Of a stretch of 39,736 nucleotides of DNA, positions 1,438-5,759 are shown piece after piece. Position 1 is the stretch's first letter, and each line of letters starts with the position of its first letter. Location: the NCBI GenBank assembly GCA_028282665.1, contig JANQHN010000075.1:1-39736 (forward strand), read 5' to 3'. The stretch comes from Phycisphaerae bacterium. GTDB taxonomy: Bacteria; Planctomycetota; Phycisphaerae; UBA1845. The notes below the pieces were generated by a model. The model did no database searches, was not told where the DNA came from, and saw nothing but the letters and a program-made list of their open reading frames with translations. Made by a program: the position numbers and the translations under genes.

Positions 1438-1662
1438 TGCTTAAACCATTCCAACCTGCCCACGCCTAGCGGCGGGACGCCATAAGTTCCTGTCTAATCC
1501 CAACTTACACGCACAACTAACAATTTCCACACGTTTGAAGCAGGCAATGTACACGCAACGCCGCAAGAAAGCAAGTCCGCCGTAAAGTCGAAATTCCGGT
1601 AACCGAAACCCATCTGTACACCAGAACAATGATCTGCGCCCTGGAGTACGACCAACAGACAC

Positions 1663-1705
1663 AAAAAAGCCTGAGGAGGCGAGTTGTCCAACTCCCTCCT
1701 CAGGC
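1663..1705 (-). terminator. Rho-independent terminator of PEP-CTERM copy A
   Basis: GCCTGAGGAGG-c-GAGTT-gtcc-AACTC-CCTCCTCAGGC (16 bp stem, one bulge). On the minus strand it is followed by TTTTTT (aaaaaa at 1663-1668). Confidence 0.85.
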
Positions 1706-1721
1706 GGTGAATCACGTAAAA

Positions 1722-2381
1722 CTATCGCCGACGAAGCAACAGCAAACCGCCGGGCAGCAGGAGCAGCAAACCGGTCGGCTCCGGAACGACCCACATAGTA
1801 ACCTCCGTGGAAGTATAATTTGAATAGAAGACCGACATATATTCATCCCCAGCAATCACCGGCGTCTCGAAAAATGCTGTGTATCCAGGACTCACATCGT
1901 CGATCACAAAAGAAGGAGTGCCTTCATCGACAGCGTCCAAAACAAAGTACATATCATCACCGGAAACCCAACCCGCGTGGTTCTCAACACTGATGATCAT
2001 GGTTAATGGAGTGCCGGCCGGATATGCCGCGCTTGTGCCGACCGTCAGAAGGCTGTCGGAATACTCAATGTCAGACGGGAATTGATCTTCTGTCAGGCAA
2101 TGAGCAGAACCGAAGCTCAAACCAGAAACCCAAGTAGAAGTCTCAAATTTGATCGCATTTTCCAAATGCGTTACTTCTATCTCCGCACTAACCCCTGATA
2201 TTTCAGCGTAAGCATAGTTCCAGCCAGAATCATAGTCAGAGTCAGGCGGATCGGGCTTAGACACTTCGGCGATAACGGAAATGCCTCCCTCAAGGGATAC
2301 AACCCCTTCTTCCGCATAGGCGACCACTGCCGCCATAAGCGCAAAAACAACCGTAAGCTTCAAAATTTTTTCCATACACAT
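1722..2381 (-). CDS. PEP-CTERM sorting domain protein (copy A)
   Basis: 219 aa; N-terminal signal peptide (ILKLTVVFALMAAVVAYAEE); C-terminal VVPEPTGLLLLLPGGLLLLRRR = PEP motif, hydrophobic helix, Arg cluster. Confidence 0.85.
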   Translation of the reverse strand: MCMEKILKLTVVFALMAAVVAYAEEGVVSLEGGISVIAEVSKPDPPDSDYDSGWNYAYAEISGVSAEIEVTHLENAIKFETSTWVSGLSFGSAHCLTEDQFPSDIEYSDSLLTVGTSAAYPAGTPLTMIISVENHAGWVSGDDMYFVLDAVDEGTPSFVIDDVSPGYTAFFETPVIAGDEYMSVFYSNYTSTEVTMWVVPEPTGLLLLLPGGLLLLRRR

Positions 2382-2550
2382 TTGTTTTCCCCAATCTGAA
2401 AGAAAATGTACCCCTCGTACGCTTGCGGACGAATCAAGGCAAATACACCCGCATATCTAAATACCCCTATATTTGTAGCGAAATCGATAAGCCGAACTCA
2501 TCCGAACACCGCAACAATGAACTGTGCCCTGGAATACGGCCAACAGGCAC

Positions 2551-2593
2551 AAAAAACCTGAGGAGGTGGAGCTGTCCAACCCCCTCCTCAGGC
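2551..2593 (-). terminator. Rho-independent terminator of PEP-CTERM copy B
   Basis: CCTGAGGAGG...CCTCCTCAGG stem followed on the minus strand by TTTTTT (aaaaaa 2551-2556); homologous to the copy A terminator. Confidence 0.8.
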
Positions 2594-2609
2594 GGTGAAT
2601 CACGTAAAA

Positions 2610-3272
2610 CTATCGCCGACGAAGCAACAGCAAACCGCCGGGCAGCAGGAGCAGCATACCGGTCGGCTCCGGAACGACCCACATAGTAACCTCCGTGGAA
2701 GTATAATCTGAATAGAAGGCCGACATATATTCATCCCCAGCAATCACCGGCGCCTCGAAAAATGCTGTGTATCCAGGACTCACATCGCTGATCACAAAAG
2801 AAGGAGTGCCTTCATCGGCATGGTACAAAACAAAGTACATAAGATCACCGGAAGCCCACCAATCTTCGTAGTTATTAACACTGATGATCATGGTTAATGG
2901 AGTGCCGGCCGGATATGCCGCGCTTGTGCCGACCGTCAGAAGGCTGTCGGAATACTCAATGTCAGACGGTTCTTGATCTACTGTCATGCAGTGACCGGAA
3001 GCGGGGTTCAAATAACCACGATAGATGTTGGTCTCAAATTTGATCGCATTTTCCAAATGCGTTACTTCTATCTCCGCATCAGCCCCTGATATTTCAGCGT
3101 AAGCATAGTTCCAGCCGGAATCGTCGTCAGATTCGGCTGGATAGCTCCGATGCACTGAGGCGACAACGGAAACGCCCCCCTCAAGGGATACAACCCCTTC
3201 TTCCGCATGGGTGACCACTGCCGCCATAAGCGCAAAAACAACCGTAAGCTTCAAAATTCTTTCCATACACAT
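2610..3272 (-). CDS. PEP-CTERM sorting domain protein (copy B, tandem paralog of copy A)
   Basis: 220 aa, near-identical signal peptide and C-terminus (VVPEPTGMLLLLPGGLLLLRRR) to copy A. Confidence 0.85.
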   Translation of the reverse strand: MCMERILKLTVVFALMAAVVTHAEEGVVSLEGGVSVVASVHRSYPAESDDDSGWNYAYAEISGADAEIEVTHLENAIKFETNIYRGYLNPASGHCMTVDQEPSDIEYSDSLLTVGTSAAYPAGTPLTMIISVNNYEDWWASGDLMYFVLYHADEGTPSFVISDVSPGYTAFFEAPVIAGDEYMSAFYSDYTSTEVTMWVVPEPTGMLLLLPGGLLLLRRR

Positions 3273-3551
3273 TTGTTTTCCCCAATCTAAAAGAAAATGT
3301 CCCCCTCGTGCCTTTGCGGACGAATCAAGGCAAATACATCCGCATATCTAAATACTCCTATATTGTAGCGAAATTGACACGGCAAATCAAAGGAAAAGCG
3401 CACTTGACCGACTTTGCACTACGCCGTAAATGGAACCGCCTTAAGATCGCCAGACTCCCCATTAACGACCCATTTTAACGAGAACGACCTGCTTAAACAT
3501 TCGTGCTTAAGTTATATTGCGTTGAGCGGAAAGAATGCCAAGCCTACGGAA

Positions 3552-4533
3552 TCAGGCGACATCGAAATTAGCGAATAGCGAGCTGAACTGCGCATCAGGA
3601 ATTAAACTCAATCTTGAAACTATCATGTATCGTCGGTTGGCGAAAATTGGCACCCTTGCAAATTCGAAATGCACCTTCCAGAAACAGGAATGACAGAGTC
3701 GTCGGCCCACAAAATGTTCGTTTTCGCCATCAAGCACACACACCGCAACGCCCGCCGCTGCCCTACGCTGGCGCAGCCCGCGCCGGCGATACAGATAAAA
3801 CGATCCAAGTGCCAGGAAAATGAGCCCGCTGGAGGGTTCCAGGATGACCACATGTCGACAAAGAGTGATCCCGGCCCATACAAGCAGTGCGTCTTCAGCA
3901 TCGTCTCAGGGCTCAAGTATTTCTCTGCTTGAATGGGAATGGAGAACGAGTGCACGCCGTCATCGATGGCGAATTGGTCGAGATAAAGCAAAGCTTCCTT
4001 CTGTCGGGACAATTTGACATGGAACGCTCCGTTTGCCTCCGCGCCGTAGATGCCCACCTCAACGATCAAAATCAAATCGGATCCTGGAGGAAACTCAGAT
4101 TGTTGAACCGATGTGCACGACATTCGATACGCCCGTAGGATCTCCAAATTCGTCCAACTCCGAGTATGTTTCCGTCTTTGCAAAATCTCCCCTCGGGTCG
4201 ACCCCGACCGTGAATTGAAACCTCGTCGCGTCCAAAAACTTGGATGCTCGCGAAGGCGGCCGTTTGGCGTGAGTCGTGATCCGGAACTAACGCCCCTACA
4301 TCATTCCAGGCATAATCATGCTGGATGCCATCGTCACCGCTCGCATAAGCGTGGAGAAATAAGTTACTCTCGATCGGGACCAATCCCCCCTCGGTCAAAG
4401 CGGTCGAGTTTAGGCAAATCACAATGAGCAACGAAAACGGAACAGACTGCAAGATGCACATGACACGCTTCAATAGACCGATGCAGCGAAGAGTCCCAAT
4501 AACGATCGCACCCAAAGTCCGGAGGCGAAACAA
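3552..4533 (-). pseudogene. Decayed PEP-CTERM-type protein gene with at least two frameshifts
   Basis: Three overlapping minus-strand ORFs in different frames make one plausible protein: 4072..4533 (signal peptide SVPFSLLIVICLNSTALTEG + N-term), 3623..4183 (PPGSDLILIVEVGIYG...YGPGSLFVDM), 3552..3851 (VVILEPSSGLIFLALGSFYLYRRR = PEP-CTERM end). Frame offsets between the ORFs are not multiples of 3. Confidence 0.6.
3714..3758 (+). repeat. Partial second copy of the 5' end of tgt
   Basis: ATGTTCGTTTTCGCCATCAAGCACACACACCGCAACGCCCGCCGC vs tgt start ATGTTCGATTTTGCCATCAAGCACACGCACCGCAGCGCCCGTCGC at 4656-4700: 40/45 identical, including the ATG. Confidence 0.8.
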
Positions 4534-4655
4534 TCAGATTTACGGCTTGCACAGAAGCGACAGAACGAAAACCACCTATTTTAACTAACCGGTTGTATTT
4601 CCGTCACTCCACAAAAGTTGCACGTGCCTCATTAACCCCCTAGCATCCCCGCACG

Positions 4656-5759
4656 ATGTTCGATTTTGCCATCAAGCACACGCACCGCAGCGCCCGTCGC
4701 GGCGTATTTCGCACCCCTCATGGCGAGGTACAGACCCCAGCGTTCATGCCTGTTGGCACCGCCGGAACCGTCAAAGGAATCACACCCAGCCAACTGAAAG
4801 CGACCGGTGCGCACATGATCCTGGCCAACACCTATCACTTGCAACTGCGCCCTACCGCAGATGTAGTGCGGGAATTGGGTGGTTTGCATACCCTCATGGG
4901 TTGGAATGGCCCCATTTTGACGGATAGCGGCGGATTTCAGGTCTTCTCGCTCGCGGGAATCAACAAAATCACTGACGATGGCGTCGAATTCCAGTCGCAC
5001 ATAGACGGAGCCCGCTTGACCCTGAACCCGGAATCCGCGACCGAAGTCCAAAACAAGCTGGGCGCTGACGTCATTATGGCCTTCGACCAATGCCCGCCGC
5101 TACCTTGCAACCGGGAAACGCTGGCCTCGGCTGTAGATCGCACGATCCGATGGGCTCAACGATGCCAAAACGCCCACCGCCGCGAGGATCAGGCGCTTTT
5201 CGGCATTGTCCAAGGCGGGTTAGACTTAGGAGAACGACAACGGTGCGTTGATGCTCTGGTCGGTATGGGATTTAAGGGTTTCGCACTGGGTGGACTGTCT
5301 GTCGGCGAGACGCACGAGGAGATGGTCTCGGTGCTGGAGCCATGCGGCGAAATGCTGCCGGTGGACAAACCACGGTATCTAATGGGCGTGGGTATGCCGC
5401 GGGACATCCTGGCGGCCGTCCAAGCGGGAATCGATTTATTCGACTGCGTACTGCCGACCCGCAACGGTCGCAACAGCCAGGCGTTCACTGCGACAGGCCA
5501 ACTCAAGATGCGTAACGAACGTCACAAAATCGACACCGCTCCGTTGGAGGAAGGCTGCGATTGCGAAACTTGCGAGCGTTTTTCCAGAGGATACATTCGT
5601 CACCTGTTTATCGCGGGAGAAATGCTCGCGGCAACTTTGACATCGATACACAACCTCCGGTTTTACCAGCGGTTCATGGCGCGGATACGCGAGTTGATCG
5701 TGGAAGATCGGCTCGACGACATCACTGAGGAATTCCCCATCGCGGTGAGCGAGGGTTGA
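4656..5759 (+). CDS. tgt: Queuine/preQ1 tRNA-guanine transglycosylase
   Basis: 367 aa; TPAFMPVGTAGTVKGITPSQL, LANTYHLQLRP, LTDSGGFQVFSLA, FGIVQGG, YLMGVGMPRDIL, FDCVLPTRNGRN and the zinc site CDCETC. Confidence 0.97.
   Translation: MFDFAIKHTHRSARRGVFRTPHGEVQTPAFMPVGTAGTVKGITPSQLKATGAHMILANTYHLQLRPTADVVRELGGLHTLMGWNGPILTDSGGFQVFSLAGINKITDDGVEFQSHIDGARLTLNPESATEVQNKLGADVIMAFDQCPPLPCNRETLASAVDRTIRWAQRCQNAHRREDQALFGIVQGGLDLGERQRCVDALVGMGFKGFALGGLSVGETHEEMVSVLEPCGEMLPVDKPRYLMGVGMPRDILAAVQAGIDLFDCVLPTRNGRNSQAFTATGQLKMRNERHKIDTAPLEEGCDCETCERFSRGYIRHLFIAGEMLAATLTSIHNLRFYQRFMARIRELIVEDRLDDITEEFPIAVSEG

Follow-up and report, generated by a model that had tools for sequence, protein, structure and literature searches.

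Two tandem genes for PEP-CTERM-like proteins, copies A and B, are nearly identical at the DNA level in some segments and clearly divergent in others, which raises the question of whether selection on the protein or recombination produced the pattern. The original prediction had offered both readings, as diversifying selection on surface loops or as gene conversion with other paralogs homogenising the framework between them.

Genomic setting of the tandem genes

The window, a stretch of 39,736 nt, is one complete contig of a fragmented planctomycete MAG (446 contigs, 88% complete), and the coordinates, strand and open reading frames first given for the two genes were correct (Table 1). Copies A and B are flanked by the rpsO/pnp region and by tgt, for the product of which the closest named protein was 73% identical and came from a 'Planctomycetota bacterium' MAG. 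The copy A protein consists of a putative signal peptide, a mature region of about 175 aa and the motif VVPEPTG followed by a hydrophobic stretch and RRR, and is 81% identical to that of copy B. The putative signal peptide at the N-terminus of both proteins (MCMEKILKLTVVFALMAAVVAYA, then EE) was judged by eye, and the sorting motif reads VVPEPTG(L/M)LLLLPGGLLLLRRR, a PEP-CTERM motif that scored near the cut-off. Assignment to TIGR02595 (cut-off 16 bits) is borderline, as hmmscan gave 12.8 bits for copy B, under the cut-off, and did not list copy A among its hits. No domain reached the cut-off for the mature region in Pfam, NCBIfam and PDB sequence searches. MreC was considered as a match to this region and set aside, its scores being weak and well under the cut-off. 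About 50 TIGR02595 hits were found across the genome together with three matches to the exosortase family PF09721 above the cut-off, so a sorting route exists, and the A and B proteins are predicted to be exported and exosortase-sorted. Promoter-like sites in a consensus scan were no commoner than in shuffled sequence; one such site lies upstream of copy B.

Table 1. Features of the A/B locus, in positions of the window
Feature	Position	Strand	Basis or measurement
Copy A	1722..2381	-	219-aa PEP-CTERM-like protein; ORF list; TIGR02595 17.1 bits (genome search)
Copy B	2610..3272	-	220-aa paralog of A; TIGR02595 16.3 bits (genome search)
Copy C, frameshifted degenerate third paralog	3760..4461	-	Frame-aware score 81; shuffles mean 31, max 45
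Duplicate (56 nt) of tgt start, at 3' end of copy C	3706..3761	+	Original at 4648-4703; 84% identity; score 67, shuffled max 31
Duplication unit of copy A, 5' and 3' flanks included	1597..2487	-	89% DNA match to B unit
Duplication unit carrying B, head-to-tail, abutting A unit	2485..3374	-	DNA match
Hairpin and T-run downstream of A, terminator-like	1669..1705	-	-31.7 kcal/mol for 1660-1730, z -4.4
Hairpin downstream of B, counterpart of that of A	2557..2593	-	-27.8 kcal/mol for 2548-2618, z -2.9
Variable block 1 of A	2226..2288	-	Codons 32-52; pS 0.33, pN 0.29
Variable block 2 of A	2079..2141	-	Codons 81-101; pS 0.35, pN 0.43
Variable block 3 of A	1929..1985	-	Codons 133-152 of the alignment, where A lacks one codon; pS 0.08, pN 0.27
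Variable block 1 of B	3117..3179	-	Codon alignment
Variable block 2 of B	2970..3032	-	Codon alignment
Variable block 3 of B	2817..2876	-	Codon alignment

Distribution of differences between the two copies

Copies A and B differed at 70 of 657 aligned nucleotides in a codon alignment that needed the one-codon indel already proposed, and 58 of these differences fell within codons 32-52, 81-101 and 133-152 (blocks 1 to 3). The longest identical run, 93 nt at the segment SDIEYSDSLL..., was accompanied by one of 48 nt at AEIEVTHLENAIKFET and several other identical stretches of 44-50 nt, so that the interleaving of near-identical and divergent DNA was borne out. Differing codons were clustered beyond chance (runs test P = 5e-5) and the longest run of identical codons exceeded chance expectation (P = 0.012). 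The description of the blocks as almost fully replaced went too far, as they retained roughly 59-77% DNA identity, aligned without further gaps and still shared residues between the copies (e.g. H-C, T and D-Q). Blocks were mildly more hydrophilic than the rest of the protein, and an AlphaFold model of copy A with copy B as the sole aligned row had a pLDDT of 26 and was set aside.

Merging during assembly, whether of the two copies' reads or of reads belonging to two strains, could create false identity in the framework or join the blocks in a false phase, and in a MAG of this many contigs an identical run near short-read length means that the block phase between the copies could be wrong. All 12 differences in the framework were nonsynonymous, however, which merging would not have spared selectively, the sequence flanking the locus at either side is unique, and the terminator arms differ. 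An assembly artefact is therefore regarded as very unlikely.

Synonymous divergence along the genes

Outside the three hand-drawn blocks, synonymous differences numbered 0 in 120.6 sites, while 11.75 differences in 43.7 sites (approximately 0.27) were counted within them; uniform synonymous divergence, the outcome named beforehand as speaking against the predicted mosaic, was not seen. These blocks were defined after inspecting the data, and the comparison was repeated with the narrower blocks of the original prediction, with blocks set from nonsynonymous density and with circular shifts. The narrower blocks gave a pS of 0.25 inside and 0.023 outside (Fisher P = 5e-5), those set from nonsynonymous density alone gave synonymous clustering at P = 4e-4, and 1 of 219 circular shifts matched the observed clustering. 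A stricter test using codons without an amino-acid change gave a weaker signal (9 of 219 shifts; Fisher P = 0.03 with the nonsynonymous-density blocks), with P = 0.002 for these codons in a nearest-distance permutation. Synonymous counts in the blocks were small, some of the changes lay within multiply-hit codons, and block 3 held a single synonymous change.

The mutation spectrum also differed between compartments, with 26 transitions and 32 transversions at all codon positions in the blocks and 11 transitions and 1 transversion in the framework, none of them at third positions. As in concerted evolution, synonymous divergence was heterogeneous along the A/B pair and near zero in tracts. Selection on amino acids alone cannot produce this pattern since the synonymous changes are themselves block-wise.

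Duplication unit and non-coding flanks

The two genes lie in duplication units of about 890 bp that each comprise the gene, the upstream region and the terminator, and both copies thus appear to have their own upstream region and terminator. The arms of the terminator-like hairpins have diverged between A and B with pairing kept. The non-coding flanks were used as a clock for the divergence of the copies. Proximal 5' and 3' regions differed by about 7% between the units, the distal 3' flank by 26.5% (22/83) and the blocks by about 23-41% at the DNA level. Synonymous divergence in the framework was lower than divergence in the pooled proximal untranslated regions (10/144, P = 0.002) and in the distal 3' flank (22/83, P = 4e-10). 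The blocks and the distal flank look similar in age, and the framework and proximal flanks look young. As the distal 3' flank has diverged about as far as the blocks, the latter appear to be remnants of old divergence that conversion passed over. Homogenisation of the framework by gene conversion, one half of what had been proposed, is well supported, since the framework has a dS of 0 while the blocks and the distal flank are apparently old.

The same mosaic would arise if the duplication itself were young and the blocks of one copy had been imported, the source being either another strain with a diverged allele or a paralog that is lost or unassembled, in which case the framework would be young rather than homogenised. 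The mutation spectrum of the blocks resembles that of diverged homologous sequence, and the MAG lacks about 12% of the genome. Yet no donor was found in the genome searched, and the outer non-coding flank has diverged as well, which is unexpected for a young duplication unless it too was imported. Block import is considered unlikely, although it carries some weight.

A degenerate third copy

Copy C aligns along the length of copy A once its frames are joined. Its frameshifts could also be an assembly error. The duplicate of the tgt start at its 3' end suggests that an earlier tandem event probably duplicated the tgt start along with a PEP-CTERM gene, after which one copy would have died (copy C) and the other given rise to A and B. 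Copy C was considered as a donor of blocks or as a means of polarising the changes and was not used, because 8 of its variable columns agreed with A, 5 with B and 25 with neither, an uninformative split. Block columns in copy C matched A or B at 13 of 38 positions compared with 47 of 164 elsewhere, where it should be kept in mind that a variable column offers two chances to match. Conservation of the block columns in copy C was thus no lower than elsewhere, an argument against loops being intrinsically hypervariable.

Nonsynonymous change and selection

One account considered for the whole locus was a recent duplication followed by strong diversifying selection on exposed loops, with no recombination involved. 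The whole-pair N/S of copies A and B was 1.65 compared with 0.24-0.64 in 17 comparison pairs, and the framework held 12 nonsynonymous and 0 synonymous differences (P = 0.009 given the observed transition bias, with the hand-drawn blocks). Such selection cannot, however, lift block synonymous divergence to the observed level with the framework at 0, nor does it accommodate a distal non-coding flank as diverged as the blocks or block positions that are no less conserved in copy C, and N/S within the blocks exceeded 1 without reaching significance (P = 0.23). Selection in the absence of recombination is accordingly judged an improbable account.

Among the PEP-CTERM pairs compared across the family, the 12 other local paralog pairs (N/S 0.31-0.64) and four pairs between genomes (N/S 0.24-0.32) showed purifying selection, and a further pair of orthologs between genomes had a pS of 0.56 and a pN of 0.084, uniform along the gene. 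Copies A and B are an outlier in N/S but also the youngest pair compared, and young duplicates often have raised N/S, so the outlying value is no proof of selection. Behind the framework count there may be selection that favours differences along the protein, or conversion sparing only selected sites. With the narrower blocks of the original prediction, three synonymous changes at block edges fell outside and the framework contrast between nonsynonymous and synonymous change was gone (P = 0.77), so that the count of 12 to 0 should be read with care. Of the expectation that loops would have a dN/dS above 1 and the framework a dS near 0, the second part held and the first, taken for the blocks, did not reach significance. 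Diversifying selection on A and B, in the blocks as along the framework, is weakly supported; selection on the pair is plausible but unproven.

Searches for donors and relatives

A search of this 88% complete genome for donors of the variable blocks returned only DNA hits at chance level, and neither donor cassettes with variant blocks nor donating paralogs of the kind originally suggested were found there. A diversity-generating retroelement or a cassette system rewriting the variable segments would fit discrete variable segments in a predicted exported protein. Against this, a DNA search matched no template repeat or cassette elsewhere in the genome, the A/B changes spanned all base classes rather than adenines alone, and inspection by eye of the window's ORF translations revealed no reverse transcriptase. 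Rewriting by such an element is extremely unlikely.

Orthologs of A and B were found neither in 50 other genomes of the family, nor in a search of 114 genomes of the order, nor among GTDB contigs; the matches that these searches returned were weak and partial and lay mostly in the C-terminal sorting signal. Among the nearest named relatives, the neighbourhood of tgt contained no homolog of A, B or C. By these sequence comparisons A and B are lineage orphans whose only relative is copy C. With neither a strain variant nor an ortholog found, the inference on A and B draws on two sequences, which do not fix the direction or timing of conversion.

Tandem PEP-CTERM arrays recur in the family, including those in genomes G020 (L184) and G019 (L182, four copies) and pairs elsewhere. 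In L184 (G020:C23:21500-30000), six related PEP-CTERM genes follow one another; identity among five of these is 57-73%, that of the sixth is about 40%, and synonymous divergence greatly exceeds nonsynonymous. Tandem pairs with identical tracts of 41-42 nt occur at L182 (G019:C227:2500-12000) and L181 (G033:C54:3000-9500), that of L181 being the sorting signal; this suggests local conversion of framework or sorting-signal segments. No second close mosaic pair was present among the other PEP-CTERM genes of the genome studied here, and a search of the available literature library found no paper joining PEP-CTERM and gene conversion.

Proposed history of the locus

Taken together, it is likely that copies A and B arose by tandem duplication, diverged, and then had their framework rewritten by recombination while three blocks escaped. 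A head-to-tail duplication of the unit would have produced A and B, which then diverged for some time. Homologous recombination between the copies, either as gene conversion or as exchange with sister alleles, would have repeatedly rewritten the framework and the proximal untranslated regions and reset synonymous divergence there to near zero. The blocks, all three of them short, would have escaped along with the distal 3' flank and kept their older divergence. The conversion partners were presumably A and B themselves. Blocks may have escaped since converted versions were selected against, the copies keeping different outward-facing segments, and/or since locally diverged DNA blocked strand pairing. 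A and B would display slightly different versions of one domain. Locally diverged sequence may escape conversion without selection. Theory predicts such a pattern of high and low divergence for small targets at which conversion meets with opposing selection (Fawcett and Innan, PMC3924837). Judged from the sequences, the A/B mosaic represents islands of divergence amid concerted evolution; it is a small if clear-cut instance of a process already known.

It is highly improbable that A and B are expressed parts of a surface-diversity system at the population level in planctomycetes, in which strains exchange short blocks between alleles of exosortase-sorted proteins and selection favours difference, phage or grazers being examples of the pressure. 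PEP-CTERM proteins are numerous and diverse and their role is mostly obscure, and a homogenised framework with preserved blocks points to segments of such a protein that may matter. The pair would also show PEP-CTERM arrays evolving by recombination besides point change. Selection on the blocks, if proven, would suggest that an arms race, or specific adhesion, targets exosortase-sorted proteins.

Comparison with known systems

The vls locus of Borrelia is a cassette system for antigenic variation. Copies A and B resemble it in having a conserved framework and variable blocks in a predicted exported protein and differ in having no silent cassettes or expression site.

PEP-CTERM/exosortase proteins (TIGR02595) occur in many copies per genome with lineage-specific expansion and little homology outside the sorting module (Haft et al. 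2006, PMC1569441). A and B share with them a putative signal peptide, the C-terminal PEP motif, a hydrophobic stretch and a basic end in a genome with exosortase, and differ in that TIGR02595 was matched only near the cut-off and the mature domain belongs to no Pfam or NCBIfam family at cut-off.

The human red and green opsin genes are duplicated genes in concerted evolution with islands, or peaks, of divergence (reviewed in PMC3924837). The present pair differs from the opsins in being bacterial, in having three islands within a 660-bp gene and in that selection is a plausible rather than an independently demonstrated factor, and is like them in consisting of tandem copies with near-zero divergence in parts and sharp peaks in coding segments.
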